DNA of 64,000 nt. Source: Isoetes taiwanensis (lineage: Eukaryota > Streptophyta > Lycopodiopsida > Isoetales > Isoetaceae). Every line of letters starts with the position of its first letter. The first letter of the stretch is position 1. The notes under the pieces are model-generated. The model saw only the letters and a program-made list of their open reading frames with translations, was not told where the DNA came from and ran no database searches. Below, in pieces: positions 3,780 to 64,000 of this stretch. The stretch is taken from NCBI GenBank assembly GCA_021234155.1, contig JAJEKV010000002.1, positions 124,001 to 188,000 of the forward strand, in the 5' to 3' direction. Made by a program: the position numbers and the translations under genes.

Positions 3780-5833
3780 AACGTTTGTCATTATAGATGC
3801 AGATGTCGCTGTATGTTTACAACGCCTCGCAATGGCAAGGTGGTAGATTTAGATGGCCTCAGACAGAGTCAGCTCAAAATGGCCTGCCTCTCGATAATGC
3901 AATACGTCGACAAAGATTGTTCAATAAGGCATTGCAAGACGGCTTTTCTCTACAGTGGACCACTAACATAGTAGTTGCAATATACAAGGGGGGCGACCCT
4001 CAATGCCTGGCCAATTACCACACCATCATGGTCAAATTGTTTCCTTTGTAGATTAAGTTGGTCGGGCATCTTGAGCGCCAGCTTGACAAATGCGGGTGAG
4101 TAGCAGAGGTGTATGGTTCATGTAGGCGGTGGCTTCACCGTAAGCACTCCATCATTGATCATATTCACTCTATGTACCTTAGTGGAAGATAGTAGGAATC
4201 GTCAGCAAGACCTGTAATGTTGCTTTATGGACTTCGCGAAAGCTTTTGACATTGTGTCTTATTCAAGTTGTGGGACAGATTGAGGCAGTTGGTGGCTCCT
4301 ATAGATCTATAGAATGCAATATATAGGTTGTATGGGATATGCTCTGGCAGATTGACACTTTCAGATTTAGTTGTCACAACACCGGGAGTACGCCAGAGCC
4401 GCCACTATCCCTAACAATCTGGCTGCCAATGACAAGCCGAGGCTTGGCTTACTGGAACGGGGAGCCTGCCTTTGGTACCATAATCTATACCATCTATGCC
4501 GACAACGCGGGACTCATGAAGCTACAACCCATGCCATGCGACTATTTGGATGCTTTGGATACTTTCTGCCAGTTCAATGGCATGGGTTAACTTGGCGAAG
4601 ACCAAGGTACTAGTATCCTCGCCTAGCTACCCTCCTTCACCTATCTGGAACAAAACGTGGAGGTTGCTCCCACTTACAAGCATTTAAGGATGGAGTTCTC
4701 TACTACAGCATATTGGGACACCTCCATCTGGTTATGCGTCACAGCAGGCTGAAAATACTATATGCCATGCAGAATAATAGTCACAAAGCAGAGTTGTATG
4801 TCTGGGGCACTTGCTTTGGACCTTGGTAGAGCCTATTCTCTTATACGATGTTGAGGTCTGGAGCCCAGTGATATCCCATGCCATTTGGAATGATCTGGAG
4901 CAAGTGCATAAGACATTCCTGGCTCGAGCGCTTGGGGTGAAGTCCACAAACCTATCGATTTTGCTGACAGGAGACAGGTGTTCTACCCTTCAAAGGGATG
5001 GTAATAAATTCAACATATCACCTACTTCTCGTAAGGTGTCGATATGGGTGTGATGTGTCGCCCTCAACCTTTTTAATATTGTGGCACTGGGCCAACATCA
5101 CCTTAAAACCTACTGGAAGGAAGAACAAACTCTGATTCTCCCGATGGAATGTCCAGGCACACAAGTGCATCCATGTCCAGTCTAAGGAGGATCACAATCA
5201 CTATGGGCAAGCATCTTTGATGGCCAAGTTCCCTTTAGCAAACTCTCGATATGTATGCACTGCATAGGTTAAGACAAAGCCACACTACCAAAGAAATAAA
5301 TTAACTTCTATGCTCAAATGTGATCCATAGTGCTGCTTGTGTACTTTGCCCATAAAGAAGCATAGGGTGATAGCCTCCATTTGTAATGTACGATCACCAC
5401 ATTGAGACGCGGCAAGGTAAATGGACTCGAGGCACGTGGAGATGTGGATCCGCTAATGTCAGCCAGCTTTGGGATCATTGAGGATGAATGCCATGCCCTT
5501 CAGACATGTCCAGTCCGGCCCCGCTATGTTCAGTTGGTCTTGCCCAACGAGCCATTGCATATGTTATTAGATATGTACTCAGTGGGCTTATTGGAATCAT
5601 ATCTTCAAGAAGTCATGGATACACACACTCAGATATATCCTCCAGGGCAGTAATGAATTGTACCATGGTTTCATTGTATAAGTTTTCTCACACTCCACAT
5701 CAAGAAAGGTTTTTCTTCTATGACAACCCTTCCCGGCTTAGGGTTTTCTAATCCTAACAAAGAATACATTTGATGCTCCTATTGGTTAAACTATGAAATA
5801 ATTGGTCTTAGAGGACAATAAAAACTCATTCTT
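3780..5833 (+). mobile_element. LINE copy A, 3' part (reverse transcriptase to 3' tail)
   Basis: Broken non-LTR retrotransposon. In order it shows a fingers-region block with WTTNIVVAIYKGGD (about 3955-4000), FMDFAKAFDIV at 4224-4256 (the F/Y-x-D-F-x-K-A-F-D motif of LINE reverse transcriptases), and YADN at 4495-4506 where YADD is expected. The second catalytic Asp pair is thus altered. Then come NLAKTKVLVS at 4589-4618 and a C-terminal block with VEPILLYDVEVWSP and ALGVKS (about 4820-4968). These blocks fall in different frames, so the copy is dead. The 3' end at 5800-5833 (AATTGGTCTTAGAGGACAATA, then AAAACTCATTCTT) matches the 3' ends of other LINE copies here. I see no endonuclease part, so the copy is 5'-truncated or its 5' end is unrecognisable. 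Confidence 0.85.
4495..4506 (+). other. LINE A reverse transcriptase active-site motif, YADN
   Basis: The bases read Tyr-Ala-Asp-Asn in the frame running on to LDALDTFCQFNGMG. The family motif is YADD, whose two Asp residues bind metal. The Asn replaces the second, which fits an inactive copy. Confidence 0.8.
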
Positions 5834-6822
5834 GAATCATGGATCTTTTAATCCCCAATGGTAATGGCCCTATCATATACATAAATTTAGTCCCTATAGT
5901 GTTTATTTGCATGAGTGAAAGTTAAATCAATTCAATTTAACGCATTCTAAATTCATTTGTAAGTATATATCTTATACATTCTAACTTCATAGTTGTATCT
6001 ATATGCTTGAGATTAAAGCAACAATTGCCCTTGTTGGTTAATAATTATGATTGTAAATAGATGCTTGAAAGCAACAATTGCCCTTGTTGGTTAACAGTGT
6101 CATATTAGTCCAACCATTTTTTGGGCAAAAAAATTTCATATATCTTGGTCTATGAGTTTTGAATGCAACCTGGCAGCTTCCCGAAGTTTGAGGTCACTTC
6201 AAAAATCTTATTCACTATAAGGTGGTTGGGATGCACTCCAATAAAGCAACTTTGTGTGGTGTGTGCATCATATATATTCAAATTGACGCTGCAAAGGGCT
6301 AATAATGATGTAAAAGATTGGTTTCTCCCTTCTTCTTCTTCTTCTTCTTGATATGCACCATCACTATCTTCATGCAAATGACCTCTACTTTGTCTAACAA
6401 AAATTTTAATCTGATTGTACAATGGTGCCTTGTTAATTAAGTCTTTGAAATAATTATTTGTATCCATAGATAATACAACCTGTTAGGAAACACAACGTAT
6501 TAGTGCTCTAGAGATTCAGAATTTGACTAGATGTAACGTTTTTCTTTATAACATCTTAATGCATTAGCATGCCATGTCTATAGCATTCATTTGGTTTTCA
6601 TTTACCATAATATTGGCTATCATAAAATGCTAGGTTGGAGATGGGTTTGTATTAATAATATGTGATCCTCATATAATTTTTGTTCTTGCTTGATATGTAA
6701 CTTTTGAATTGTATTTGTAAAATATCGAGATAGGTTCTGAAAAAATGCAGCCTTTGGTGGGCATTCCCTTTTATGCATATACCAAATAAATATACATACA
6801 CAAGTTACAAAAGCTAAGTAAT
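5834..6822. repeat. AT-rich intergenic DNA with a small tandem duplication
   Basis: No gene was recognised. Two copies of AAGCAACAATTGCCCTTGTT (near 6018 and 6070) form a close tandem duplication about 52 bases apart. A short (CTT)n run lies at about 6335-6351. Confidence 0.6.
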
Positions 6823-9315: not shown

Positions 9316-9318
9316 CTA

Positions 9319-9373
9319 GAATTGAATTGAATGGGTTCTTATCTCCACGGAGACCAACAGACATATGGGATTA
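9319..9373 (-). mobile_element. LINE-family 3' end fragment with (AATTC)-type tail
   Basis: Read on the minus strand, the bases give CCCATATGTCTGTTGGTCTCC, a short spacer GTGGAGATAAGAACC, then a tail of AATTC units. This is the same 3' terminus as the longer LINE copies in the window (CATAGGCCNATTGGTCTC, spacer, short tandem tail). Only the last 60 bases or so are recognisable, as expected for a severely 5'-truncated insertion. Confidence 0.65.
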
Positions 9374-9689
9374 CCCATCATCCACCTATTCATCAATAAG
9401 TTTCCATCTAGGAATGATTATGGCATATGTCCACGTGGTCGGTTGAAATTGAAAGTTTCTAGATATCTTAGAATAGCATGTGGTCGACACGTGTTGGATC
9501 GATCAACTAGCATGATTTACACTTAATCACAAAGTTATGCAAAGATCTAAATTTTCATCTAGAAATGATCGTGGCTACCTTATATGTCCTTCGTGGACTT
9601 ACATAAAACTTATCAAGCACGTCAAGACTGAAATAGAAAAAGTTTAAGATTAAATAGAAGGTAATCTAACAATAGTATATCTCGGCCTA

Positions 9690-9760
9690 CTATGCTATTG
9701 TATCTATCTTTTGGCTTGGACTTTTGATAAAGTTTGACGTCCTTCAAAAAAAAAAGAGGA
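9690..9760 (+). mobile_element. Short poly(A) retroposon with 19-bp target-site duplication
   Basis: The 71-base insert ends in TTTGACGTCCTTC followed by ten A residues. It is flanked by AATAGTATATCTCGGCCTA (9671-9689) and AATAGTATATCTCAGCCTA (9761-9779), a 19-bp direct repeat with one mismatch. Poly(A) plus a long direct repeat is the signature of LINE-driven retroposition. A related 3' end (TTTACGCCCTTC then A residues) occurs at about 48771-48829, so this is a family with a poly(A) tail, distinct from the microsatellite-tailed LINEs here. Confidence 0.8.
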
Positions 9761-10487
9761 AATAGTATATCTCAGCCTAAATAAAGAGTCTTTAGAAGTG
9801 CTAACTTTTGCCTAAAGTAGCATTTTCTAGCATAACTTGTGTCAAGTCTCTAGAATGCTCAAAGTTGACCAAGTCGATGTTGACTAGTCTATCAGCATGA
9901 ATACAGCCTAAAGAGAAAAGTTTGTAGAAAGAGTAATCTTTGTCAGATGATTTAGGGTCCTCTGAGAGTTAATTAATAGGCGTTGAATCGTCAAATGGCA
10001 TCTCGAGAGTAAAATCGAAATCTTGGCCGGGTATAAAAGCACTTTACCATAAAACAAAACAAGCTTCTATAAAGGTAACTTCATGATATTTAGAATCTCA
10101 TGGAGATTGATTGGCCAATCACATGAATAAGCAGCTCAAGTTTAAAATAAAAGGATCTTAAAATAGTGAGTCTTCTGGGATTAGATTACTGGACTTTGAC
10201 TGGTCCTCATTAAGGGTTGAATAGTAGATGTTGACTGGTATAAGTAAGCTCATTGAGCTTAAAATAGAATCTTTTGAGAGTAGTAACTCTTTTACATATT
10301 CTAGGATGCTCTAAGGTCCTTTCCAAATAAAAAAAAATTAAATAGTATATAAACTTCTAAGCTAGCTGCTTTAATTAAGACATATAAATTACAATAGAAC
10401 TTAATAAAATAATTGGTTAGAAGAAAAAGTTGATAAAAATTGGGGATTATATAATCTGTTATCTATCTATTTGATGTATTCTTTTTT

Positions 10488-10545
10488 ATTGGGTCCGTAG
10501 GCCAGTTGGTCTTTGTGAGTGATAAAAATTCATTCAATTCAATTC
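10488..10545 (+). mobile_element. LINE-family 3' end fragment with (ATTCA)-type tail
   Basis: The sequence GGGTCCGTAGGCCAGTTGGTC is followed by a short spacer with GATAAAAATT and then a tail of CATTCAATTCAATTC. It matches the shared LINE 3' terminus on the plus strand. The rest of the element is absent or unrecognisable. Confidence 0.65.
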
Positions 10546-13800: not shown

Positions 13801-15610
13801 CTTGGGAGGGGGTAGGCAAAGAGGAGGAGGTGAGTGCATCCGACGAAGCTATAAAGTTAACGCGATAAAGCTTTAAGCAAGCTTGGCAAAGGTTAGAGCC
13901 CTATTGGCTAGATTGCTAGTATTGAAGCTTGAGACGCAAGGGCTTGGCTCCCCGGCCAACAAGATGGGGCTAAATACCAATAATCCGTGGGCTGGGTTTC
14001 AGGGTTTCGGTGCCAAATGCGTGTCCTTGGTGAGATGGCTAAAAGCATCTCTAACAATATACTTCTTTGGACATGGAACGGGTGGCTATCTTAATGCTCC
14101 CTCATGCAAAGGTCGTTTTGCTCATGCCATGTAACAACACTGGAGATGCAATCTCACCGCCAATTGGCACACTTCAAGCAACATTTTCTATCAACCTTAC
14201 CTTCCTAAAGTTTAACTTCAAGCAACCCAAAACGCTTAAAACATATAAGCAAGAGAAGATGCACATGTCACACATTATTAATATTGCCAAATGTAATCTC
14301 TGTAAAGCTCCTACATATATACAGGATTTTACCATCCACGCAGATCAATTGGCCTACATCCTAAAGAGAGCGCAATGTGCTTATTACCGGCCCCGCTTAA
14401 AAAAACTCACTCAAAAGATTTCGAGGGAAAATCGTGAAAGTAAATAATAAAGTGATGTCAAACTGCAAACATACATATCATGTAACACATATATAAGTTT
14501 CCAAATAGTAACTGATATAGTTGATCCCAAGACATCCATAACCTCCTGAAGGGCGTGGTTCCAAAGATCCTGATGTTGGAAGAACCTATAAAGGAGGTAG
14601 CAATTGCATAGGTTAAGGCAAGAACCCACACCCCCTTCCCCCCTCAAAAAAATAAATAAATAAATAAATAAGAATGATGATTGGTTGGTGAAGCCCGTGG
14701 GATTCACATAGAAAAATATGAGTGTCTAGAAGGGGTTTATTTTGGGTTTTTGCATACATATACTAGGGGTTGAAAATCATTTTAATGTATTTTCTCGACA
14801 AAAGGGGTGTTTTTTCAAGGCCTTGGTGTACGTATATAGGGGTGTTTCTCATTACCCCAAGTACCAGCGCATGCCTGAACAATCCCATATGTTTAAAAAA
14901 GACTACTTCAAGCATATTTCTAGCCTCTCCATCTTTAAACAAACAAAAACGTTGCTCTCTGGATGGAACTTCTTTTGCCACTTTAATTTCAAATCCTTAA
15001 CCTTCTCTTACAACTTGCCAACCTCCTCCTACCCACTTGCCATATATCTTCCTTGCTCTACAACGATGTCTTTCTCAAATTTATCTTGGACATTCAAGAG
15101 AGGACGCCCACCATCCAAATGTAGGGAGGCCTCAAAATCAATTCACTTTAAGGAATGGCAAAAAATTGAAACGCAAAAGTAACGCACATTTACTTCTAAA
15201 ATGAACTATATGTGGTTCAAATTTAGGTCCAAACCTGAGCGCCTTGGGGTTTGGCGACAATTCTTGGAGCTTAGGTTGAACAGTCATAGAAACCTTGAGG
15301 AATTCCCCAGCTCATGCAAACTTTGAGTACTCTATTTGTTGATGGGAAACCATTCCTAGGGTTCATTTGAGAGCGTAAGATCTAAGCTTCTAAGCTTCCC
15401 AACGCACCTATCTTTGTCCAATTTTGGCTAAGACTCCTATTCCATATTGAGTGAAATACGGGCATCCTCTCTTAGGGCACATCTCAATTAGGCGCTTATT
15501 ATCTCTTCCCGACCTTGCCGTGTGGCAAGGCAAGAAGCACCTTCCCTAAAGTTTATCCTACATGGCACCCAGTACCTCAAAAGATTTGGATAGGTGAAGG
15601 CATCTCAAAA
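10831..15610. other. No gene recognised
   Basis: About 4.8 kb of AT-rich sequence. The longer open frames (for example 12453-12713, 14067-14447 and 14742-15182) have no motif I recognise and no splice or codon pattern supporting them. A (AAAT)n run sits at about 14646-14673. A pyrimidine-rich block near 15010-15080 resembles one near 16020-16130, so the area is partly repetitive. Confidence 0.5.
14646..14673. repeat. (AAAT)n microsatellite
   Basis: About six tandem AAAT units follow a run of A residues and a C-rich stretch. It may be the tail of an old plus-strand retroposon, but no body was recognised. Confidence 0.8.
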
Positions 15611-22963: not shown

Positions 22964-23030
22964 GAATTGAATTGAATTGAATTGGATTGATTTTATTATC
23001 CGCGGAGACCAATTGGCCTATAACAACCGG
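22964..23030 (-). mobile_element. LINE-family 3' end fragment with (AATTC)n tail
   Basis: On the minus strand it reads ATAGGCCAATTGGTCTCC, a short spacer with GATAATAAAATC, and then about four AATTC units. This is the same terminus as the window's full LINEs. Little or no body is recognisable on its 5' side, so it is a short 5'-truncated copy. Confidence 0.7.
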
Positions 23031-36700: not shown

Positions 36701-37590
36701 CTACATGTCTCAATATTTCAGAGCGCTGGACAGCCAATTAATATCAGAAATTCATAAGGCACTCCAAAATTCAAAAACACTACATGGTTTTTCTATGGTT
36801 GTGACTAGAAACCATTCTAAAAACCTAGTCGGATGTTTAGTTAATTTCATTGTTCATAGCGGACTAAACTAGTTGGTCTTCTCAGAAGGTTTGTTAAGGT
36901 ATTAATATGGTGATTGTAAATGGCTTATTTCTAGTGTTTGTGAAAGTGGTATTATATGTTGGTACGCGGATGTGGTACATTATATCGCTTTTTAGGGTAA
37001 TGGGTCCATGTGGTATAACGCGGATGGTTGTGTGGATGGTTTCAATGTAGTGCTCTATTCATGTGGATTTCATAATGCGGTGTTGTTGCAGGGTTTTGTT
37101 TATTGTGGAAAAATCAGTCTCGCTTAATTTTCATGGTAAACCCTCAGCATCGGTTCGAATCTTGTGTTAATAGTAATAAATCACTATTATTGATTAGTCA
37201 AAAGTGTTTAGGGTTTTTCTATTAAAGCACTATTGTGCTTTCTATCAAAATTAGATATACTGTTTTGCTCAAAAATGTGCATGGTTTTCGTAATGCATCG
37301 TGTTCATGGTTGAATACCGATAAACTAGTAATGTTATGTAGTTTGGAAGTATCAAGTTAATAGACCAAAACCATTAAGAACTATGGATGGCTTCTACGAT
37401 TGTAGTACTTTGGCTGAAGTTGGTAATCCAATAATGGCTTCTAGTCTAAAAGCGCCAATTAATGCAGCAAAAGGCAATGACGCCTTTCCCACTAATAATG
37501 ATAAACCACTAAAATGATTTCTAGTGTTAAGCTTCTTTCATTGTCGCTTAATTTAACCTCTTCACCCACGCCCCAACAAATAGGAATTGA
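33721..37590. other. No gene recognised
   Basis: About 3.9 kb of mostly AT-rich DNA. Frames at 34118-34414 and 34879-35106 are short and unrecognised. The region 36770-37510 has scattered ATGGTTTT/AAAACCAT words like those at 45810-46130. Confidence 0.45.
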
Positions 37591-37596
37591 GGCTCA

Positions 37597-39465
37597 GCAT
37601 GGTCTCCTCGAATTGCTCTGGCTTCCATGGCGTATGAGATAGTCTCAACTCAGCCGCTACGCATACGGATCTCATCTTCCTCATGGAAACATGGGAGCAT
37701 GCAAGACACAGATTACCCGACTTGCAACCAAAGACTACTCAATCTTCAATGATTGCACAGAAAGCTGCATTGGGGCCACCGCTACCACCGGAACAACCCT
37801 ATAATACCAATCTCCTTGTTCAAGACACAAGCACAACCTGCACCGTAAGTGCGCAGTAAAACCGCAGCGAGCGCACTCTTTGTATGTACCGCTACTTTCC
37901 ACATGCAGTAAAAGCAACTTCTATCACACCCACTTGATGTGGATAGGCCGACCTCTGCGTCGCATCTATATGATGACATATAGCAGCATAAGTACGGCGC
38001 GGTTTCATACCTCGAGACTTCAATGCGCCGCGACCGGGGTAGAACAACCTATGATTTGATCCCTTGATCGATGATATGTTGCAGCTTAAGGCCCCGCAGG
38101 CGCCGCTGACAATTTTATTATCGTGATGACAATCGCCACGCGCTATGGTCGCATAGCTGCTTTTGCTCACAAAGATTCGCTCATGAGTAGATGACCTCGC
38201 GTAAATTTTGGTAATATCCTACATTAGAGCAACAGATGTGCTCTACCGATCGATGTGCTTAGGGACTCCGGGCAGAGAGGTGCTTTGGGATAAGCCGCCT
38301 GGCCATTGCATCTCCTGAACACAACCTTCCCACGCGAATCAATGGTGGTTTGATGCAGAGTGCAAGGAATGACAAACGCCGGCTCCGGCCAAGTCACAGA
38401 CCTTGCTTACCACATTCTTAAAGCAAGAAAGTCATGTGGCTACTGCAAACAAGCATCAAAGGGAAATGTTTTACCTCCTCGAAGATCATCACTCCTGTGA
38501 CCTTTCCGCTAAGGGTTCTAGAAAGCCAAGATACCACAGGAATATCACTCGGAAAGCGCGGAGGGCAATACTTGCAAATAAATTTTATACGACCCTCGTG
38601 GTGCACATGCATCTTACTTCCCTTGCAAGAAGGCTCCAGTACCGGAAATCACAGATTCGACGGAACAAGGCTTACGTACTGCCTTGCCAATGGGAAAGCC
38701 CCGCATTTCGATGCAGGCGCGTGCGTAATTGTTTAGGAGTAAGGGGGGCCGCCCATAATACCTCTCAAAGCCGACCGCTTTGTTCAACAAGGTATTATAG
38801 GAAGGCTTCCCCGCCGCGAAGGACCAATAGCAAAGTTGTTCTCATCTATAAGGCAGGGGACCCATCAGCTTGAAGCCACCACACAACAATCATGGTCAGT
38901 TCTATAGTTTGCAAAACCGCTTGGTCGGGATTCTCGAAAGCGCCAGCTTGACTGGGCCGGCAGAGGGCAAAGAGAGGTGCGGCCCTCACCTGTGCAGATT
39001 CGTGACCCCGCACTCAACCATTGACCACATCTTCATGTTGCAAACTCGATTGAAGACATCAGAACTGGCCAGTCGATCTATATACCGCTGTTTTGTGGAT
39101 TTTGGCGGCGCTTGACACCGTAAGCTCCTCGAAAACTAGAGGGGCAAGACCGCAATGTACCGGGGTTCCTCTAGATTTGCGCACGCAAAGCAGGCCAAAG
39201 CATATGAAAGATGCTCGGGTCGCTGCGTTGCAGCATAAGCCAACCATTTGATAGGCAGTATTCGTGGTTCGCCGTGGATGCCCTCTCCCCCAACATTGTT
39301 TGGGCTTTACATTGACGAATTGGAGAGTCGGGTTTGTCGATTAATGGGGGCTATGGAGTTTCACCTTCTATCGACATCGACAGCTTAATATATGCCGGTG
39401 ATGTGGACTTCCTAAATTATGACACTGTACAGCATATGCAACTACATCTCGATGCCTCGACACAT
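37597..39465 (+). mobile_element. LINE copy B, 5' segment (endonuclease and reverse transcriptase)
   Basis: This is the left half of a non-LTR retrotransposon split by a CACTA element. TDLIFLMETWEHARHRLPDL (from about 37665) fits the opening of an APE-type endonuclease, where the Glu of ETW is catalytic. DFNA text follows near 38015, the endonuclease G-D-F-N motif region. Reverse transcriptase blocks are VVLIYKAGDPS (38835-38867), HSTIDHIFMLQT (about 39011-39046), CFVDFGGA (about 39090) and YAGD at 39391-39402, where YADD is expected. The frame changes between blocks, so the copy is dead. The element resumes at 44408. No ORF1 was seen upstream, so it is probably 5'-truncated near 37540-37600. 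Confidence 0.85.
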
Positions 39466-39489
39466 CACTACAAGAGGAAAGGGGTATTA

Positions 39490-39960: not shown

Positions 39961-42625
39961 TGACTCATATATAATAGTATGAACTTTACAACTCATACTA
40001 ACATGTGATTTAACTCTTGTATGTATGTTATCTTTAGAGTTGATGCTATCATTGACTCTATATCCATATTGACTCTATATCCATCTCTATACCATTGACA
40101 TATATAGTGTATGCACTCTAACTAGTCATGCACTTTACTATTCTTTTTCAACTTATTGAATAATCCCATATGATAAAATATCAAAAGAGACACTTGCCAT
40201 CTATTCAAAGAACCAAGTCTTCATTTCATACTCATTCCTGCTAGAACAGATTTTGCTACAGCGAATATATCATCAATTGTGCATTATCGTGACGGTCTCA
40301 TATGATTCAAAAAGTTCATCAATGCATAGATAGTTCTATCAAGGATCTCAACACAATGTTCCTCAACGCCAATGACATATGTTTCAAAAAGGTTTAGTAA
40401 TGTCATCTAGTTAAATATGTTCAACCTCTTCTATTTTATCATAGAAGAGGTTGAGTGTGCTTCTTTGTCTATTTTTCTCTATTGTTCTCCTCATCAAAGT
40501 AGTCATCAAGTATATGATGTTCACATGCATTGGAAATCTCAAACTAAAGGTCTCGATGTCCTCTAATTATGAATCATGGTCATAATCACCATTTTTTCAA
40601 TCGGCCAATCAATCCATGAACTCAAAGGAAGTGGTAGGCTATCGATGATGATCCTGAGTGTCACAATTAGGATCATTAACGACGTACGGCAATAACTTTC
40701 CGGAGAAGATGGTTGTGAGTGAATCAACCGCAATTTCTTATCCCTAGGATTATCATGGAATTGACTTGTTTCACTTGACTAGGAAATTTCTTCCTTGAAC
40801 CATTTGTTCTTTAATACGCTCACATGGAATGAACGAAGTCCTCAAATCAAAAATCCCTCAAAAGATTTTCATTATAACTTAGGATTTGGTACCGCTTCTA
40901 AATTGATGATCAAGTAGCTGCTTCTAAAAACCTCCCCGATGGAATCACATGAGAAATTGTTAGCGTAAATGCTTCTCGCAGTTTCCAAAATGCGTACCAC
41001 ATTGTAACGAACCAAGATCCGTAACTCAGAAATTAAATTTTAAGCCGCGCGGAGCAACAGGTATCGCGGGAAACAAATGCCAAGAAGCAAACTCAGGATG
41101 GGCGATCCAAAGATGATCGACCGGGATTTTCTTGCTTCGTAACATCTCCAAATACAAACAATGGAAGACCTTCAACAAAGATAATAATCCTCACAACATT
41201 TCCTAGATCTTCTCAAGTGCCATCTAAAGCACTTTGAATGCATCTGGGGATGCCTTGGCATTACATCCAAAAATAAGTACTACACAAAAAAAAAAAAAGG
41301 AAAAAAAGGAATACAATCTAGATGCTTTAGAAATGAGGAGAAAATGGCGCGATATTGTCTCTCTAATATAAGTAAGAGACTCCAATTCAAGATTTATCAC
41401 AGCAAAAGTCTACATTTGTCAAGCTCCCTTTACCTAATATCGAAGATTTCATGTTCTCTCAAAAGAAGTAACTCTTGCGAATGGGGCTTAAATCTAGCTT
41501 GATAATTTTGCCTTTTTATAAACAGAATGCCAAAATAACGTACTCTTGTGTGGCATGCATGTTTGATGAAGCTAAGAATCAGATAGAATGTGGCTTCCAC
41601 ACCATAAGAACCTCTTCATCCGCTAACCTTCATCTGGGTCCGAACTACTAAAATCTCAAATAGCAAGTGGAGAGGGACAAAGTTCAAAATAGTCCCTAAG
41701 GGGACCCGCGAAGTTAGTAAGTGGAACGGCCAAGATGCCGTAACATGCGGCAAGGTTCCTAAAGACAAAAACCAAGGCCTTTCCTTTTTAAATAAGAAGA
41801 TAGGATGATGCTAGTGAATTTGTTCAAAATCCAGTTGGCATGTGTAAGAAATCCACATCAGCTATAGAAGTGACCCTAAGCCACATGGCATTGGAATAGG
41901 GTTAGCAGGGAAATCGATCTGACGGACGTCGAAGCTTGGGAGTCGAACTCGGGCTTGAAGTAGGAGTTGCATCGCACTCTTAGAATTCTTTATATATGGC
42001 CTGGAAGAACTAACGTTTTTTTTTCCAGATTTGGTAATGTTCAGGATGCTCTGGACCGACTTTAAGCATTTTGACGAGGACAAAGCATCGGGTAGGGTTT
42101 AGGATGCTGTAAAGCGGCAACATCATAGTATGCTTCCATTTCCACCCTCATAGTTTCTCCCATCGCCCTTTCAAATTAAAAGATTTGTATAGGCAGCATT
42201 TGCAGCTGCTGCTCTGATTAAATTATATTCATTTTCATACGGGTTCACTGTGGATAATAGTCATAGGCCATTTCTTATCTTGCCCAGCCACTGTTTTGGT
42301 TTATTTCTCCAGGTTCTTGAGTGGTCATCAATCAAAATTACCTATCGTGGCTAGCTATTATTTCGAATTTCCCAAGTTTTACCTATATTGTCCAGTATAT
42401 TTCGTTACATGGCATATGGTGGTAGTTGGATGTTACAGTTCATACTGTTTTGCCAAGATTCTTGCCTATATTATGAAATTCCTACACACAATAACAGGTT
42501 TTGTTGATCCTCTCATTTTTAGTCTACTTTTGACTATATAGTTCTTTTTGGTTGTGAATTTATTGATCTATTGAAGATGTCATGAGGGTAAGTTTTATGC
42601 ATTTAACTTTTGTCTGATTTTGCAG

Positions 42626-43460
42626 GTCAGCTTGAAGATAAAGCTGATGACTATATTTTATACATTTTGAAACTATCTCCTAAATTTCCAAAAGCATTCT
42701 GCTATTTAGAATTGTCAGCACGTGAACACTGAAGATGCTTCAAATTTTTGGTATGCAAGGAGTGAATATGTCAACCTTCTGGTAATTGTTCTTATGACAA
42801 CCTTGTCAAGCTGGTAATTTTACTCTCTGTGTCGTAAAACAATAACAATCCAATGCATAAAGAAGGTACAATTGATGCAGCATATATATCCCCTCTTTTG
42901 TCATTTCTTATGCCCTACACATAAGACTCTCTCTGTAATGCTGCAGACTTATAAACTTATAAACTGTCAATGGGCATCTTTGAGATAAGTGATTTCTCTT
43001 TCATCTTTGAGATAAGTGAGTTATCTTTGAGTGGGACACCTTTGAAGATAATATAGATTTGCTTAAAATCCCAACTGCAGGACATATGTCAAGATGACTT
43101 TTTATTGATGTCTGCCACTTTTTTCCAGGACAAGAATCCAAAGGTGAATAGAGCCATTGAGAGTGACCCTGAAGTTGAGATGGCATTAAGGCTACGTATA
43201 CAAGTATACAATGAGGACCTCTTGATGACTTGTGCTGTATATTCATTGACATTTAATTGGTTGGGATTCTTGTTTAAATTTCTTACAAAAGTTATATACC
43301 ATAATATAGCTTGCATGAATTAGATCATTTAATTTGGTTTTTGACACAATTTGTTTTACTCCTGTTTACTTTTATTGATCACCATAGTTTGTCTTTTTTA
43401 AACTCAGGCTGCAAGATGGACAGGTGTGGTCCTCTCTGGTGTTGTATATTTTGTTTGTCA
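42626..43460 (+). pseudogene. Exon-like host gene fragments carried inside the CACTA element
   Basis: Three segments preceded by good polypyrimidine-AG acceptors are open. At 42626-42733, QLEDKADDYILYILKLSP and onwards. At 43129-43205, DKNPKVNRAIESDPEVEMAL then RLRI. At 43408-43459, AARWTGVVLSGVVYFV. The third looks membrane-associated. I cannot name the parent gene. Spacing and splice-like borders argue for captured genomic DNA with introns, as in Pack-CACTA elements, and not for a transposase. A fourth acceptor near 42030 may mark another piece. Confidence 0.5.
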
Positions 43461-43939
43461 AGGAGGTTTGCATCAATGATCAATAAATAAGTTTAGAGTA
43501 AGCAGAGTGTATATGGTGGCTTGGATGATTTAACATTCAGAATCTTAATGTGAGCTGGGTTAAACTACTTGGATGACATTTGCAGGCTTGAACAGTAAGA
43601 AATGAAACGACAGTGCAACGCTAGCAGCCACTGACAATAGAAGTTAGCACTCTGGACACTGTTGGACTTACTGGTTCGAAGTCTTTGAGTTTACATGGCA
43701 TCTCTGATAACGCTAAATGCACCAGTGATAAATTCTGCTCATAGATTCTGTACAAGTGTCTCCTTTGCTTCAGTACAAACGCATTTGTGACCTTTAAATA
43801 TATGTAAGTCCCTCCCTTTGTGTCCGAGACCCTTTGCCTTTTTTTTTATATCCGAAAGATTAATTGTTTTATAGGAATTAGATTTTCTTGTGGGTAGGTT
43901 AAACGGCAATATCGTATGGTTCAAATCCTCAAATTTCGG

Positions 43940-44330
43940 CTATCTAATATACATTGATAATGAGGGCGTGACTCTAATTTTGATGATAGTATCACTTTTG
44001 TTACACACAAATGATGCCCTAAATTCTGTCGCTAGGGATTTGACTATAAGTCTGATGCTAGATTTGACTCTAAGTCTGACACAAAAAGTGACGCTAATTT
44101 TGACGCCAGATTTGACTCTAAGTCCGCACAAAATCGGCGATAATTCGACGCTAATTTGACGCCACCCAACGCTAATTGTGGCTGTTTGATTCTCCTAATG
44201 TTGCATCAAATTTTGACGTAAATTTCACTCTAATTTTGATTTAAAAATTCTCGACGCTAATGCCGACGCTTTTAAACGCATTGCATATAGAGAGTCGGGC
44301 TTGTGAAGGCCAAATTTTAAGGCCTGCTTA
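43940..44330. repeat. CACTA right subterminal repeats
   Basis: Many copies of TTTGACTCTAAGTC, GACGCTAATTTGACGC and close variants are crowded into under 400 bases, matching the word family in the left subterminal zone. This supports the two ends belonging to one element. Confidence 0.85.
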
Positions 44331-44407
44331 AGGTTTTTTTCATTTTTTTCAGTTTGCTTATAACTAAGTTCACTCTAAACTCGACTCTAATACTCCCTTT
44401 CTCAGTG

Positions 44408-45703
44408 CATTCTCAAGCAAGCTGCATCGAGCATGCGACATCAACTCCTGGCCAAGTGCTAAGGTGGTTTTCATATCTTCACGCTACCAGGGTCCCCTCC
44501 TTTAGTTACCAAGGCCAATCGTGGAAGTTGCATCCACATACAAGTATTTGGGAGTGGAGTTTCCTTCTACTATGCATCGGGACACATCCATAATGTGGGC
44601 TACGAAAGTGACTCAAGTAGCCGGGAAGGCACTATATGCAATGCAAAACAATAGTCATAAAGCTGAAGAAGTGATTGGGCCCACTACCACACCTGCTCAA
44701 GGTATTAGTAGTAGCCTGCCCTTTTATACCTGGGTGGAAGTATGGGGCCCAAAGAGTATCACTTGCTACTTGGAATGACTTGGAGCAGTCCGTAAAAGCC
44801 TTCTTAGTATCGGCACTAGGGGTGAAGTCCCATAGCCCCATATCAAATTTCTACCGCGGTGAGACAAGACTTGCTCTTCTCGCAGGGCGGCCCTGATCGC
44901 CACATTGTCTATTTTCAAGGTGGTCAATATGGACGCATGCTCGCTCCCTAAACTAGCTTATATAATGGCACGGAGCCGCAGCTACCAAGGCCTCGGGCTG
45001 AGGGAAAAGAGAGCTCAATGGTTGGCTAGATGGAATGTGCGTGAGCACAGCGCATGGCATGTGCAAACAGAGGCGCATCGCCATACTTGAGGCAAGTAAT
45101 ATCTTGACGCTTGCTTCCTCAAAGAAGCTTTTGGGATGCCAATGCCCTTGAACATGTCAAGACAAAGACACTACACCGCCATAAATCCTACATTGGAACG
45201 AGGCCCGCGAATGCTACATGCTGCATCTACTCCTGCCCATGAAAGGCGCAGATTCATTGCCTCCATTCAACAAAAAGGGCCATCATCTTCAATCAACAGA
45301 CGCGCATGGGATTGCAGCCACGCCGTGATAGGCTCACACGCCGCCAAATTGCCCAAAGACATATGATCAAATTCGGACAGCGCTTATGTCGTAGCTGGTC
45401 AGCCCGCCAGCCATTACATGTGACATTGAGCACAAAGATCCGCACGCGTGCCGATCATACCTTCCGTGAGGTTATGGACATGCGTAGATCAGCTATGTCC
45501 CTGGGCACACACTTGATATGTATATATACATTGATGTATACTTGTACAGCTTGACAAAGATTCTATTACTACCACGCTTTTCCTCTAAACCCGGCTGGTT
45601 TTTAACCTGACAAGTATTGCTCACAAGGCCCTATGGGTCCTTATAGGCCCATTGGCCTCAAGGTGATCTATATAAAAATCATTCTCATTCTCATTCTCAT
45701 TCT
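44408..45703 (+). mobile_element. LINE copy B, 3' segment with (ATTCTC)n tail
   Basis: This continues LINE B after the CACTA insertion. Text aligns with LINE A past the active site: an AKVVF-like block near 44450, YKYLGVEFPSTMHRDTS (about 44536), YAMQNNSHKAE (about 44635) and WNDLEQSVKAFLVSALGVKS (about 44773-44832). The 3' end reads CCTATGGGTCCTTATAGGCC, ATTGGCCTCAAGGTGA, then a tail of ATTCTC units at 45681-45703. LINE B without the CACTA is about 3.2 kb. Confidence 0.85.
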
Positions 45704-48991: not shown

Positions 48992-51900
48992 GAAGGAAGG
49001 AAGGAAGGAAGGAAGGTTCTTTTATCACCACGAGACCAATCGGCCCTATGGGACCCAATAAAAACGCTAGCAGTTTAATTATCGCCTCTGATTAAAAATC
49101 CCCGCCTAAGGGTTTTCGAGGGAAACGGCGGCAGCAATCACCAATGACAAACTCGTCTCTAACATATAAAATGCGTAAACACCCAAATATATACAAATAT
49201 GCACCACACCGTAGTGCCTAATCACGTGCATGCGGCAAAGGTGACCTCGCAGTCCGGGCATCTCTTGAATGTACCTAATCTCAGTGGCATCGTGATCGAC
49301 GGCAGGTTCATCAAAGAAATGCAAGGGCAAGTCCTACTGCACTAAGGACCGACCGCCCGATCCGGACCAACACCGCAACTCCGAAAGCGTGGAGACTATC
49401 CTCAATGGCACCCGCTTGACAAGATCGACAGAAGCCTGCCCCGGGCGGGTTCTAATCCACCGCCTGCCTCGACGCGAAGATGGTGGGCATCCGTATGTAA
49501 TGGAGGTACGAGTCCGCTGCTTTCAGGGCAACCGGAACGTAGAGTCACAGGCCCCAAGCAATAGGTTGATGTGCTCCTGTAATGGCCATTTTGACGGTTC
49601 TAGAGCCGGGGTCCCAGAGCTTGCCAAGGAAACAAGCTGCCCAGGTACTCCCCCGCAGCTGTCACGGACGGGCCACCGTGTCTAATTTTTGCACGCATCT
49701 CTGCTCCTCGCGACATTCCATCCGGCGCAACCACTGATCCTCTCTTACCCTCCAACAAAGCCCTAAGCCAAGGGACCCATGGCTACAAGTAAGCCAAAAG
49801 GAGCCGAGCATCACCCATAGTAACTACTCTCCTAAAAGTAGACGGCGTGTCTATCATGGCTGCCTCACAAGCCGCAAGAATCCGCTTTTCTCAGCTAACT
49901 TATTAGGGATCAAGGTTTCACCTCCCAAGTGCAGGCCAAAAATGCCTTCTCGTGACTTGTCTAAGTCACCTGTGTCGCCAAAGAAAAATCCACGCCCCAA
50001 ACCTCGACCAGCATTGCATGACGTGCCCCACTGCCCTAACAACATGTGACTCCATGGCCCCAATCATAGAGCTCCCGCCTCGGTGACCTGTTCTGCATGG
50101 CATAAAAGCGCCTAAACCACACACCATAGTTTAGATAGACGCCTCCCAAAGCCAGAGCGTAGGAGGGGAACTCCACCCTAGGTACTTGTAGTGGGCGGAC
50201 GGCCCACAGCCGCCCCCGATATGTGAGTGCAGTGAGGCATGGGGTGATGTGGAAGAGGATATGAGAACCACTCCGGTCTTGGGCTTGCATTTGATGCGCA
50301 TGTTCTGTAGCCCGGACAAAATGTGTCTAGGGCGCCCGTGACCGCGATAGCTTCGGGTGTGGGCCACAGGCCAACATCGGCCCTCAAGATAAAGACAGCC
50401 GGGCGATGACTGTAAAAGTCAGATGTTATCTCTATGCCTGCAGAAGCCGTGGCTCTAACTGACAATGTAGAGGCCAAAAAGTGTTGGCGGTAGAGGGGGC
50501 AACCTCACGTGACCCCATACTTCATCGTGAATGCTCTACCACGCAATACGCATCCCGCCAAAACAACTCTCATACAATCAGATATGGTGACTCACATTGT
50601 GCAGCTGAGTCTCACGACGCAGCCTAAGCCTACTTTTCCTTGAACTCAGATCGTGCTCATGGTCCACCTAAGCAATACAAGTCCTCGGCCATGATTCCTA
50701 CTGCCTTCAATCGTCTCGGGCAGTAAAGATATGGTCAATCGCTGCGGCGGCCTGTGCCGCTCGCGGTGAGGGCTCGCGACATCTGGCCGCTTCAGCTTCG
50801 CCGGGTCAATCGGGCCGCCGAGAATGCCTAACAATGGCGGGGCATCAACCCTACCATGATCGTCCTGCACTGGCCGACAAAGGTGGGTCAGCCATTGCGG
50901 AATGGGAACAACCCCGCCAGGGTCCATTGCTCCGGGAGACCTTCCCGCACGCTCGCTGGAATCGTGGTAGTGAGGACTCAAGATAAGCGGGCCGCCCGCC
51001 TATTTGAGTAACTCGCCTCGCATACTCATCGAGGTCACCGCTTTCCCATTGCCACCTCGCTGCAAAAGTCTCTCCTCAACATCCTCGGCCCACGGTGAAC
51101 CAATGGGGCCATCCCGCGGGGTATGGGCGCACGCTGCCCCCGGCGGGTCATCATAGAGCCGCCGCGTAGCACGGCCCCCATCGCCTCGTGATGTCCCCGC
51201 CAGAGGGTCAATGGGCCTTTGGCGCTTCGTGTTGCTCGAGGATGAGTGTCCAAAGAAATGTAACATCTCCTCCTCGATAACCGGCAAGGTACCGCCTTTG
51301 TGTCCCGGGATGGGCGCAGATCGTGGTGGTGGCTCCTCAAGCGGTACCGATCCGTGATAGATCTGAAAGCCGCCGCTATGCTTCTTTACACTCCGCATCA
51401 AAAACCATCTGCTACGCTGAATGTTGCCGACTCTCGAGCGCAAGGACGGTCTCAAGCAAAGCACTGTCCACCGTATCCCGTGAATAGCTAAGTCACCGGT
51501 TCTGTCTGGGCCGCTTCTAGTGTGGAGGTCTCCAGACCACATCGGGAGGGCGCCCATGAGCATCTCGGCTGTAGTCCCTTCCCCGCCTCGCTTCATAATC
51601 TAGTCTCAACTGAGGACGGGCGAGGGGTCAGTATAGTGGGGTTCCCCGCGCTTGCCAAACCAAAGTCCAAATAAAGTGGAGGTGATCTCGAGTTTCCATC
51701 TCCCTATCCCGATCACTGCGCTCCACCCTAAACGCGATCGATGAGATGCATATCTGCGCACCACGTAGCACATAGTCCACTACACTAGACCCCCGTATTG
51801 TCTCTGCTCCCCTGCATGCACTTGCGAATCGCCATCGCGGAAAGGCCATTGCAAATTATCATAAAAATGCCAGAGCAGCAGAGCAAATCGCTCCCGCCAA

Positions 51901-53891
51901 AGCGAAGTGATCTCGCCGCTATCCGGCCCGTGGCCGCCGCCATGGCGAAGGCGTGACATCGCCGCGAAGGGGCCAAGCCGCATGGGCTGCCTCTACTCGC
52001 CCTACCGCATTGAAAGGGCCCCAAGAAGCGACGCACCCTACCCAACCGGGCTGGTGGCTGCATGTCATCATATAGATCGACATAAGGGTCCATCCTATCC
52101 GTGACGGGGTGGCCGCGAGTAGAAGCTGTGCCGCCTGCATGAGGGAAATAACAGCGCCGTGGTGAGGGTTGCCATCGTATTATGCACACGCAACCCGCCA
52201 AGTACCCTAAGTAGGTTCTGTCATTTTCGGAGGGTAACCTAATGTGCTAAGGTTGTCCTGTAGTAGCAAAGCCACTCCACCATGACCCTCCGTCTCCGCA
52301 TGCATTTTAAACACCTAGAAATGTTGGTAACCCTAAGCAGCATCGTAGCCTCAGGCTCAAAGATGCTCCTGTATGTCTCCATGAGAGTATAGATCCATAT
52401 CTACGCTACTGAAGTTCGACTGCCCCTCTTCTCGGGCCAAGGGAAGCCTCTTTCGACATCCCATGAGCGACCACCCGTGAGACAATTCTAGCTTTGTCGC
52501 CAGGGATGGTACATGCGCAGCCTGAGTCGCAGGGGAGTGACTCCGAAGCAGAGGCCGAAAGGGAGAAGTAGATGGAGCCGAGGCAAAAGATGTGGCCGAG
52601 GGCGGGGCCATGAGGGAGCAGGAGTAGGAGCAGGAGAAGGCAGGCCGTAGGAGAAGCGTACAGCCATGTGTTTGCTACAAATAAGTAGTCTCGTAGCAGA
52701 GTGTGTCGGGTTTGGAATGTGCATCCCCGCCAACTAACTTCGCGCATTCCCCGTAAGTAATGCCTCACTTCGAAGGCTCCCCGCTGCCCCGCTGCGGCTC
52801 TCGCTGTGGCTGGTGTAAGAGGTCCTGGCCCACCGTGCATGTGGATGTCCCTTCAAAGACCGGCCCTCGGGCGCAATATGGTATCACGCGACTGCATCCT
52901 GGGAACCGTGAATATGACAATGCTGGCTTAATACCCGGGCACAGCCCTGCGATCTGCCGCCGAGAAATGTGAATCGCTCGAATGCCACACATCATCCGAT
53001 CGAGAATGTGTGTTCGATAAGTTGTGGGCGCAGACTCTCCTCAAGCCGCTCGGGGCATGCCTCGAACTACTGGGACAGGGCCTTCTCACCGCTAGCTTCC
53101 CGAGTTCCCTTCAAGCACAGCGTCAAAGGTGGGCGCAGGGCCGGGTCCTCGTGGCCGGGGGTGTGGTGGTGGCCGGGATGGCGGGAGGCCGGAGTGTGGC
53201 TGGATGGCGGGAGTGGCCGGAGGTGGCTCGATGGCGTGGAGTGGCCGGAGGAAGGGCAGCCATATGGGGGCGGGTCGGGCCGCAGGAGGCCGTATGGTAC
53301 GGGTCTCAGCCGCAGTTCTTCCCCTGCGGAAGCTCCGGGAGCACAGCCTGTAGGCCCGGCCAGTCGCCACATCTCCGGCCAGACCGGGCCAAGTAACTGA
53401 CCATGAACCTCAGAGGGAGACCCCGGGCTCGGTTCTGCGGGATGGTTGCCCGCGAACCCCCGGAGCTCCGTGCTCCGAAAAGTAGCGAGAGCGCGTTTCG
53501 AGCTCAGCAAAGACACGGCAAGGCCAGGCCGCAAGGCTTGCTGCTCCGGGATCTACTCCTCAAGATCCCGGGCCAGACCGGGTCAGTTCAAGAAGAGCGC
53601 CCCGCGCCCCCTCGCCATGGTGGTGGCTTCCACCGACCGGGGCCGGTGACACACAATCGCGACCATCGCCTCGTGACGCACAGCCCTCTCCTCGCGGTCA
53701 AGGTGTCCGTGAGTGATGAACAACACGTAGTCTAGGCTGCCCGCATGTCACCTCGCCGCCTCCCGCTGCCGCCGGGAAGTGTGCAAGGCCAAGGCCATCT
53801 TTCACATGTACCGCGGTCTCCGACTGCGGATGCGTTTTCTAATCATTTGCCTTTTGAGCACATGGGATGCCGAGACTCCATTCCATCGCCA
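48992..53891 (-). mobile_element. LINE copy D, ORF2 and 3' part with (AAGG)n / (CCTT)n tail
   Basis: Minus-strand, GC-rich LINE. Its 3' end on the minus strand reads CCCATAGGGCCGATTGGTCTC, a short spacer GTGGTGATAAAAGAA, then about six CCTT units (48992-49016 on plus). Text resembling the post-active-site region of LINE A and B includes YKYLGW (about 50190) and YAMQNRSPRRELYDWG (about 50060-50110). Upstream, an endonuclease-like region shows LYDDM and GPFNA text near 51990-52080. A proline-rich stretch near 53100-53350 probably belongs to ORF1. Frames shift often, so the copy is dead. The 5' remainder lies beyond the LTR insertion, at 60923-61640. Confidence 0.75.
53887..53891. other. Left target-site duplication of the LTR element
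   Basis: CGCCA borders the left LTR. Its partner CACCA at 60923-60927 borders the right LTR. Five bases with one mismatch fit integrase-made duplications. Confidence 0.5.
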
Positions 53892-61640: not shown

Positions 61641-62905
61641 AGCACAAAAGGGTATTTTGATAATACCCTAAATATTAGGCATTTTTACAATTAGAGGAAA
61701 AATACAATTTTATAATTTTTCCTATTTTTAAATCTCAACTTATAATTTTTAACCTAACATGATAATCTATGTTCTACTACTTTATGTGGTATCTTCCCTA
61801 TGAGTCTTGCTATGTTCAAGTCATATGGCCATAGCCAAAGTGGCTAGATTACGCGCTATGATCTTCCGGGAAAAATCTCCTCAAGAAGCTAATGTATATT
61901 GGGATCTTCCGACAAGTTTTCTTATGATTTTGGCTGTCTTAAGGGCAAGTGCTTCTACATATGGGAAGTTGAAAGATCTTGGGTATATAAGCCGAATATA
62001 CCCCGGATATCCATCAATGCATCGGCCTAAACTTTTGTGCGGTAAAAGCATGCTACTTGTGATACCACTTTTTGAACCCTCAAAAGTACCTAAGCACCGT
62101 ACTTTTAAAACTGTACTTTCTGCTTTTTCTTTCCATTAAAAATCAATTGAAATTTTTGAATTGAAGGTCAATAACATGCCAATCTATAGTAATGATAACA
62201 ATACTATTAGAGACTAAAATAAATGAATTAATCCTCAAACTTATTTTTTATCATAAAGATTTATGGAGGTTCCAAGATCTAGTGTCAAGGTACTTTTCTC
62301 TCGGTAGTTTTGCACTCCCTAAAAAGTACTTTAGATGGTACACCCCTAGCATGCTTTCACCCTTTATAGGCATTAGTCTGCATCATCCTTTTGTATCGGG
62401 TAACCTTAAACCGCAAACCGGCTATCGCTTTCAAAGATTTCAATCCTCAGAATTGGGTTCATCTTTGTGAGACTAGGCATTAATCATACTATGGTGTTAG
62501 TTTTATTGCCCGGGTGTGTTTACCGTGGCATAGAATCCCATTTGTCATGCCGCCAGTTGTTTAATGTGCATCTTCGATCCTATCTTGCAGGTGCCCCCTT
62601 CTTTTTGAAAGGTACCATTTACATACCCATCAAGGCACATATATATGTCATCTATTGTCTAATGGTTTCTCATACCTGTATTTATGCCCCGTAAAAGACT
62701 ATTAGATAAATGATATAGAAATTGCTTCAATCATGGACAAATCACAAATAGTGAATGATGAATGGGGATAAGAGCAACAAGAAACCCTTTAAGGATTAAT
62801 ATGGTCATGCTAATGAATATTCAAATTGTTCTCGGCCGATAGCGCAGAGAAGATTTGAGAAATCAATGGCTATGGTGGTTTTGGTGGCATCCCTCCTCAT
62901 TAGTA
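61641..62905. other. Spacer between LINE D and LINE E
   Basis: Three consecutive plus-strand open frames (61807-62139, 62192-62470, 62467-62694) are unusual for their joint length in AT-rich DNA, but I recognise no domain. They could be the remains of an older element between the two LINEs. Confidence 0.35.
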
Positions 62906-64000
62906 GAAGGAAGGAAGGAAGGAAGTTACTTTTATCGCCCACTGAGACCAATCTGGCCTATGGGACTCATCGTTAAACGCAGCAAGCTTGACATCACCGG
63001 ATAAAAAACCCCTCACTCGGCAAGGGTTTTCGAGGGAAAACCGTGGCAAAGAATCACTCACGACAAACCGTAAGCACTCATATAAAATGCGTAAAACATC
63101 CCAATATATACAAATATGCACCACTCAGAGTGCCTAGTCAGCCGGGACAGCCAAAGTGGGGCAAAGGTGACCTCGCAGTCCGGGGTGACTCGGATGTATG
63201 ACCCTCGGCACGACTGACAGGTGTTCATCAAGAATGCAAGGCACGCCCACCGTGCATTTAAGGGAGCTGATTCGTCTCGACCGATCAATCACAAGTAACT
63301 CGAAAGTGTGAGACTCATCCTCAACGGGCACCCGCTTGACAAAGACTCGACAGAAGCTCGTCTCAAGGGCTCCCAATCCACCGCCTGCCTCGATGCTAAG
63401 ATGGTGGGTAACTGTATGAATGGGAGGCAATGAGCCCCAAGACTTTTTCAAAGGCAACCGGGAACGCAGTAGAGTCAGGCCCCGCTAACACTCTGGGTTG
63501 ATGTGCTCCTTGTAATGGGCCATTTTGACCTCGCTTCTAGAGCAATGGGGTCCTGTGAGCTCACAAGGAAACAAGCATCTGTGCAATTCTCGCTGTGTCA
63601 GCCACGACGCTTCACTGCACGCATCCTGCGGCCTCGGCATCGCTCCATCGGGCGCAATCCACCATCTCTCTTACCCTCCAACAAAGCTCCTAAGCCACAA
63701 GCACTCATGGCTACAAGTGTAAGCCAAAAGTGGAGCCGAGCATCACCCATAGTAACCACTTTCTCTCAAAATAGACGGATTAAGATTGAGACATGCCGCT
63801 TCACTGCCGTCACCCGCTAGTGAGCAGACGCCTCCCGCCAGAGCAGGGAGGGGAACTCCACCCCTAGGTACTTGTAGGGCGGACTTACTGTGTCGGGCCC
63901 CCCGAGCATGTGAGTGTGAGGCTGGGGTGACGTGAAGAGGATATGAGAACCACCCCGTCTGGGCCAGATTGACAAGCAAGCATGTCTCCAGAGGCCCCAC
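62906..64000 (-). mobile_element. LINE copy E, 3' part, running off the window
   Basis: The minus-strand 3' end reads CCCATAGGCCAGATTGGTCTC, a spacer with GCGATAAAAGTAAC, then CCTT units (about 62906-62930 on plus). Alignment with LINE D is clear: 49081-49790 matches 62975-63740, sharing GGCAAAGGTGACCTCGCAGT and TCTCTTACCCTCCAACAAAG. Near 63960 the minus-strand text VNLAQT followed by FSYPL matches the NLAKTK region after the active site of LINE A. The copy carries frame changes, so it is probably dead. The rest lies beyond base 64000. Confidence 0.8.

Follow-up and report, generated by a model that had tools for sequence, protein, structure and literature searches.

How do retrotransposon copies that share one 3′ end come to carry different tandem repeats as tails? 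The question is posed by a 64,000-nucleotide stretch of the Isoetes taiwanensis genome (G000:C1018:124001-188000, contig JAJEKV010000002.1; hereafter the window), in which the initial annotation had proposed one family of long interspersed nuclear elements (LINEs) with a common terminus and many tail units. Our analysis supports LINEs that share a conserved 3′ end and differ in their tandem tails, an observation that is real, well above chance, and mostly accounted for by known LINE biology. The bodies, however, belong to several related lineages and not to a single family: the long window bodies share 60-67% identity with the genomic copies L014 and L016 (blastn), and one of them, copy 2, 74-77% with L015, L009, L018, and L021. 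They are probably LINEs of the stringent 3′-recognition type, in which a hairpin is recognized and the tail slips as reverse transcription starts. Genome-wide counts given here refer to the assembly of 1,658,258,908 bases in 1,110 contigs.

That the shared terminus exceeds chance is evident within the window itself. The 18-mer quoted for it by the initial annotation, allowing up to three mismatches, matches four times against 0.12 expected from shuffles, and a profile derived from 100 genomic copies detects seven LINE 3′ ends at E≤1e-3, with no match at E≤1 across 20 approximately dinucleotide-preserving shuffled windows. Six of the seven termini previously listed were recovered by the profile (5,800; 10,488; 22,964; 45,640; 48,992; 62,906); the site at 9,319-9,373 is marginal, remaining unmatched even at E≤10 and having a three-mismatch pattern and its tail as sole support, and a further end at 14,327-14,481 had been overlooked.

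The elements are LINEs, i.e. non-long-terminal-repeat retrotransposons, that encode a reverse transcriptase (RT). Copies share their 3′ end and stop at various points in the 5′ direction, similarity to other copies ending between -47 and about -2300 across 20 loci. The body contains an RVT_1 domain (E 3e-27), with matches in the PDB to the R2 retrotransposon protein (E 1.5e-17) and L1 ORF2 (E 1.6e-10). The group perhaps also carries an APE-type endonuclease, to which a 60-aa upstream piece of L016 gives a weak Exo_endo_phos match (E 0.014, below the curated cut-off). Divergence between lineages falls mainly on third codon positions (for example, L009 and L011 differ at 66, 56, and 188 sites in positions 1, 2, and 3; p 3e-23), and the lineages thus diverged as working genes. 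The group has thousands of copies in the 1.66-Gb genome, and body sequence with matches to the RT open reading frame (ORF) is kept in four window copies (blastn, tblastn). A six-frame RT search reported 128 matching stretches, with 127 of 53,150 loose candidates scored. At G000:C1028:10715544-10716482, a stop-free RT match lies inside an open frame given as 1,085 codons long, which suggests recent activity.

The constant part of these elements folds into a hairpin with paired changes. The exact word GGCCNATTGGTCTC occurs 5,034 times in the genome, compared with 14 occurrences of the reversed control. A hairpin of roughly 30 nt lies directly before a GATAAAA-like spacer and is kept across the lineages examined; the same core hairpin appears in the minimum-energy folds of all five lineage representatives. 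Among 25 representatives, hand-chosen from 33, four hairpin pairs have changed on both sides against 1.1 when shuffled, and none of 500 shuffles gave as many; sliding the 3′ partners by one to three columns leaves pairing in 21-52% of cells. One R-Y stem pair, counted genome-wide in the context CATAGRCCNATTGGYCTC, occurs as A-U 2,567 times, G-C 1,905 times, and G.U 4,346 times, and as the mismatch AxC 59 times where 581 are expected under independence; these counts are of copies rather than independent events, and reflect a few expanded lineages. The upstream stems add three pairs changed on both sides in a 10-sequence alignment. The 3′ untranslated regions (UTRs) can be aligned over about 150 nt between lineages, and mean identity among seven clade representatives is 87% in the last 45 nt versus 68% in the preceding 155 nt, although part of this excess is due to sampling by words from that region; a third bin (58% at 200-560 nt) was left unused as some representatives are truncated there. 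A conserved 3′ stem-loop with compensatory changes, a feature of stringent-type LINEs, is therefore present. By analogy with L2 and CR1 elements, it is most likely bound by the element's own RT, which would explain why it is kept across lineages.

Several different units follow this constant end. The tail scan of the window found CCTT at 48,992 (6.2 units) and 62,906 (5.0), ATTCTC at 45,640 (4.2), and AATTC at 22,964 (5.2), 10,488 (3.0), and 9,319 (2.8), with no tandem array at 5,800 or 14,340. CCTT, AATTC, and ATTCTC are accordingly real, as the initial annotation had it, but the CATTCTT it assigned to 5,800 is a single copy, and its AATTC and ATTCA are the same unit read in different phases. 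The spread of units within the 64 kb, which had been called striking, shrinks from five to three, with both CCTT tails coming from one clade. None of the eight scanned window sites has a CTATT tail, the unit of 73 out of 100 genomic copies sampled by an exact 14-mer; an exact word favors intact termini and hence young copies, and the window copies are more diverged. The remainder of that sample comprises six CTTATT, six CTTT, two CAATT, and one each of CCTT, CCCT, and CTATA, plus ten copies lacking a convincing array. Words joining spacer to tail, counted on both strands, greatly outnumber their reversed counterparts: CTATT 1,766 to 3, CCTT 3,391 to 3, CTTATT 270 to 0, CAATT 124 to 0, CATTCT 114 to 0, and CTTT 19 to 0. 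As contiguous words, these are lower bounds that depend on the spacer written. Arrays reach 37 units for CTATT and 13.5 pure units for CTTATT (tail scan).

Three further features of the tails were observed. Some are composite: L079 has (CTTT)7.8 and then three CTATT units, and L019 and L071 mix CTATT with CTTATT. In the 14-mer sample, 35 of the 73 CTATT tails end in the phase ...TCT, above an even spread over five phases, which could be a trace of priming by the target strand. At L132 (G000:C116:54162-54555), a second, short terminus with a CAATT tail directly follows one with a CATTCT tail; judged from the sequence, one copy has inserted in, or next to, the tail of another.

Whether tails follow lineage was assessed on trees of the 3′ UTR. 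The first contains 85 UTRs, reduced from 108 by dropping copies with less than 90 nt alignable, and the second 102, reduced from 137 by the same rule and with L099 and L031, members of duplicated insertions, left out. Loci L001-L008 were dropped since they are the same places as later loci, and five rows with no recognized tail were left unlabelled. Alongside copies sampled irrespective of tail, 31 were picked by their tails, with search words that extended into the spacer, a stretch that may vary by lineage in its own right; 19 of these entered the tree (14 CCTT, 5 CAATT), the rest having too little alignable sequence. Two clades take in all 14 tail-picked CCTT rows, and one clade the five CAATT rows. 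Altogether, 17 of the 18 CCTT-labelled rows belong to clade A (13 rows, including both window CCTT copies) or clade B (4 rows), whose hairpin variants lie outside the 14-mer sample; the lone outsider is L077, scanned as CCCT and relabelled CCTT by hand. Seven CAATT rows lie within one nine-row clade (support 88/85, not starred), and one CTATT clade has that unit in 30 of its 31 rows. With the 19 tail-picked labelled rows included, the tree requires 15 changes of label, compared with 33 when shuffled (minimum 30 in 200 shuffles). The 78 labelled rows that were not tail-picked show no excess clustering (15 changes versus 15.8 shuffled; 88 of 500 shuffles as low), and the case for inheritance therefore rests on the tail-picked copies forming clades. 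Judged by these CCTT and CAATT clades, tails are inherited within lineages.

Tails also seem to be rewritten sometimes between copies. A 25-row clade holds six units (15 CTATT, 4 CTTT, 3 CTTATT, and one each of CTATA, CATTCT, and, in L077, CCCT). Minority units make up 10 of these 25 rows and 1 of 31 in the other CTATT clade (Fisher p 0.0013, the clades having been chosen post hoc). One 26-row clade unites clades A and B with a CTATT clade of nine rows, so that CCTT and CTATT have replaced each other between relatives. The 3′ UTR rows of L021 and L059 are identical, yet their tails differ (CTATA versus CTATT). The duplicated insertions L022/L031 and L098/L099, on the other hand, keep their unit, and their tails differ by one base and by one unit respectively; this is the look of ordinary microsatellite change after insertion, in two examples.

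These data are best accommodated by the probable hairpin-recognition and slippage mechanism. The RT would take its RNA by the conserved hairpin before the GATAAAA-like spacer, as in L2 and CR1 elements, and the RNA would end, after the spacer, in a short tandem repeat on which complementary DNA (cDNA) synthesis would start at the nicked target. Slipping or re-annealing on this repeat would re-make typically three to six units and sometimes change the unit. Being copied along with the element, the tail would pass its unit to the lineage (CTATT, CCTT, CAATT), and occasional slips would found new ones (CTTATT, CTTT, CTATA). That units differ among near-identical copies is what slippage predicts; the step to slippage during target-primed reverse transcription, as the initial annotation proposed, and at initiation rather than through mutation of source tails, is one that we infer.

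Several observations weigh against this interpretation. Given their composition, single-sequence hairpin energies are ordinary (z -0.6 to -1.6), standard pairs among the 25 representatives are in slight excess only (93.5% vs. 92.3% in shuffles), and a slide of +1 still gives three pairs changed on both sides. The sample was chosen largely by the exact 14-mer and is biased to young copies, the scatter of minority units rests on 16 rows, and the tree is blurred, with the copies of one duplicated insertion differing by 16% in the 3′ UTR while their flanks are 99% identical. Finally, target-site duplications (TSDs) do not exceed chance, which leaves the insertion junction with no independent mark.

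The alternative that survives best is that ordinary DNA microsatellite mutation at the source loci accounts for every change of tail, with each insertion copying its source's tail unrewritten. Such a process would place CCTT and CAATT tails with clades, as found; the CTATT arrays, which reach 37 units, imply that replication slippage happens, and the duplicated insertion L098/L099 does differ by one unit. However, the minority units among copies that were not tail-picked scatter like random labels, rather than forming families from a few mutated sources, although errors in the tree weaken this point. Moreover, L021 and L059 differ in unit despite their identical UTR rows, and both duplicated insertions kept theirs. 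We therefore consider source mutation as the sole cause unlikely.

Assembly error is a further concern. The I. taiwanensis assembly is reported to combine Nanopore, Illumina, and optical-map data (PMC8566536). Differences between young copies cluster near CHG sites, at 15.9% versus 2.3% elsewhere in the body of the L009 group (7-fold; L009, L015, L018, L021, L030, L047, L069, L081, L091, and L104, at about -520 to -230 from the terminus) and 22.3% versus 11.9% in the L016 group. By eye, they include multi-base replacements (CTG to TTTG, CAG to AAAG) that simple deamination does not explain; Nanopore miscalling at methylated sites is the probable cause. Such miscalling would inflate divergence, frameshifts, and tree branches, and would distort estimates of repeat divergence and ORFs in this assembly. 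It reaches the UTR: the 3′ flanks of the duplicated insertions are 99% (L098/L099) and 98% (L022/L031) identical and their 3′ UTRs only 84% and 89%, a disparity that implies assembly errors and inflated branches. Several copies differ by 0.5-2% in their 3′ UTRs and by about 10% in their bodies, with no bias toward any codon position. Trans-mobilization of dead LINEs, whose dead ORFs would be carried via the 3′ end, was considered for this pattern and dropped, since the differences sit near CHG sites and base-calling error is simpler.

Some minority units, CTTATT and CTATA among them, might themselves be Nanopore repeat-calling errors, of a kind published for telomeres (PMC9414165). The presence of Nanopore data, the CHG-associated differences, and the excess divergence of duplicated LINE ends over their flanks all lend this some weight. 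Against it, the spacer letter before the tail differs between units (A24/T23/C53 for CTATT, A59/T28/C13 for CTTATT; chi-square 39.5, p 2.7e-9, hand-counted from the first 100 matches listed per unit). A pure repeat error should not depend on lineage, and the dependence of the CTTATT share on the spacer letter thus disfavors it. In addition, CTTATT arrays extend to 13.5 pure units, and the tail units hold no CHG. Repeat-calling error as a source of these units is quite improbable, although individual minority-tail copies, L021 included, may be miscalled.

The tails could instead be microsatellites that already stood at the target sites. They are junction microsatellites, and no TSD proves them to lie inside the element. 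TSDs were sought in 139 copies, 92 of them with a 5′ end that falls within the retrieved sequence; a tail could be scored in 85 of these 92. In these 85, the main setting returned three matches of at least 7 nt against 5.1 expected and none of at least 8 nt against 1.5, while the strict setting returned one of at least 8 nt against 1.1, which overlaps the tail. Across five window settings, nothing exceeded chance except one copy with a match of at least 14 nt in the two widest. The expectation that each tail would be flanked by a TSD was thus not borne out, within a procedure that recovers 79 of 85 planted duplications of 9 nt and 84 of 85 of 12 nt, and to which those shorter than 7 nt are invisible; such short duplications occur in other systems, as in a chicken CR1 described with a 5-bp duplication on its flanks (PMC2734521). 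The flanks nevertheless speak against pre-existing repeats: two units of the copy's own tail occur in only 1 of 85 5′ flanks. Arrays of these units number 22 in 234 kb of sequence, made up of the window plus long loci, and 20 of them have a hairpin-like word no more than 60 nt upstream, compared with 5.6% of random window positions. Of the 21 sequences searched, 20 had been retrieved on account of a LINE end, although the window by itself gives 4 of 4. As CCTT and CAATT tails also go with clades, pre-existing repeats are very unlikely. Convergence of unrelated elements upon one terminus, for which the difference of up to about 40% between bodies might speak, is scarcely credible given the RT coding shared by window and genomic copies, the third-position bias of divergence between lineages (for example L009-L011), and the alignable 3′ UTRs.

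Hairpin recognition with tail slippage may be taken a step further. The tail could be a heritable, readily rewritten priming sequence decoupled from the RNA-selecting hairpin, and the CTATT-majority clade with six units among 25 copies could have an RT or priming mode that rewrites tails far more often (10/25 vs. 1/31 minority), with insertions lacking TSDs. We offer this tentatively, as a possibility that we rather doubt. If it is true, the genome would document in nature how target-primed reverse transcription slips as it begins, and would do so for a plant LINE that differs from the poly(A) L1s and (TTG)n-type RTEs of flowering plants.

Changing tails and slippage retrotransposition are, going by its title, reportedly the subject of a 2004 study by Tu et al. 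on a short interspersed nuclear element (SINE) of Aedes aegypti. Among better described systems, the 3′ ends studied here likely work like those of CR1 or L2, a likeness of end arrangement rather than of RT clade. CR1 of birds and other amniotes is reported to have a 3′ hairpin and (ATTCTRTG)n instead of poly(A), and to be mostly 5′-truncated, with a unit changed to 10 bp in CR1-W (PMC8665684, PMC2734521). The hairpin followed by a microsatellite, the 5′ truncation, and the existence of a family with a changed unit are all shared. Neither the octamer nor the CR1-W 10-mer was found as a tail here, however; the main units are 4-6 nt, several coexist in one genome, even among near-identical copies, and the host is a plant. 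In the L2 clade of fish, also of stringent type, the ORF2 protein of zebrafish ZfL2 is reported to bind a conserved 3′ stem-loop (PMC4176376), and UnaL2 to end in TGTAA repeats proposed to serve template slippage (PMC3747384). Stem-loop and terminal repeats are common to both groups, but the hairpin sequence and tail units are unlike, and the stem-loop binding is theirs, ours being a reading of sequence.

The nearest plant precedent is a group of L1s in maize and sorghum, described by Ohshima as carrying a hairpin with compensatory changes and as conserving the final 45 nt much better than the body (PMC3747384); the conserved last 45 nt and the hairpin are shared. By the same account, flowering-plant L1s almost all end in poly(A) and RTEs in (TTG)n or (TTGATG)n. 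The tail scans found no poly(A), (TTG)n, or (TTGATG)n tail on the present LINEs, which end in 4-6-nt repeats; a microsatellite-like tail is nonetheless common to them and the RTEs. Tail units of Bov-B LINEs differ between hosts, and Bov-B has TSDs, which were not detected here; the functional significance of microsatellite-like LINE tails is said to be without general consensus (both PMC13295347). None of the titles and abstract openings returned by literature searches describes this LINE, the supplementary repeat tables of Isoetes papers falling outside that scope. Of interest is a plant hairpin-plus-microsatellite LINE group with several tail units in one genome, together with evidence for inheritance and rewriting that is limited by assembly quality. 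It would extend the range of LINE ends in plants; for flowering plants, a review names L1s with poly(A) and RTEs with (TTG)n or (TTGATG)n (PMC3747384). Once freed of base errors, a genome with thousands of copies, a covarying hairpin, and six or more tail units, some of them on copies that match in the 3′ UTR and differ in tail, would allow the inheritance and rewriting of tails to be measured on a tree.

Within the window, the longest body with no large insert is that of LINE copy 3 (48992..52537, minus strand), a member of CCTT clade A. It aligns to L014 at 61% over 3346 columns (blastn, 49375-52537), its 3′ end matches the profile at E 1.8e-17, and its (CCTT)6.2 tail occupies 48992-49016 (TRF). 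LINE copy 4 (62906..63777, minus strand), also of clade A, is a 3′ part that may run beyond the window end; it has a profile match (E 7.5e-22), blastn similarity to 63777, a C-terminal piece of the RT ORF (tblastn), and a (CCTT)5 tail at 62906-62925. LINE copy 1 (3615..5832, plus strand) comprises an RT body in several frames with stops, recognized by blastn to L016 (62% over 2340 columns) and RT fragments in tblastn, and a 3′ end at 5640-5833 (profile 5640-5824, E 7.9e-8) from which a tandem tail is absent by tail scan. Four shorter ends complete the set. On the plus strand, 10469..10545 is a short 5′-truncated end with an (AATTC)3 tail (profile E 2.6e-4; tail scan). On the minus strand lie the marginal end at 9319..9374, with (AATTC)2.8 and its three-mismatch pattern at 9350-9367; the end absent from the earlier list, at 14323..14552, which has no tandem tail (profile 14327-14481, E 1.6e-14; blastn to L014 and L016); and a short end at 22964..23022 (profile E 2.2e-7), whose (AATTC)5.2 tail, at about 22964-22989, is imperfect (tail scan).

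LINE copy 2, on the plus strand, is in two parts. Its upstream part (37575..39465; blastn to L014/L016, tblastn) is separated by a CACTA-like element from the downstream part and 3′ end (44411..45703), which shows its closer similarity to L015/L009/L018/L021 from 44433 (blastn) and ends, by profile (E 6.6e-12), TRF, and tail scan, in (CATTCT)4.2 at 45679-45703. The interrupting insert, at 39466-44407, is 4,942 bp long, with inverted termini that start CACTA/CACTG and a 3-bp duplication, CAT; TGACTCTA-type repeats lie close to its ends. By these termini it is a putative CACTA-type DNA transposon.

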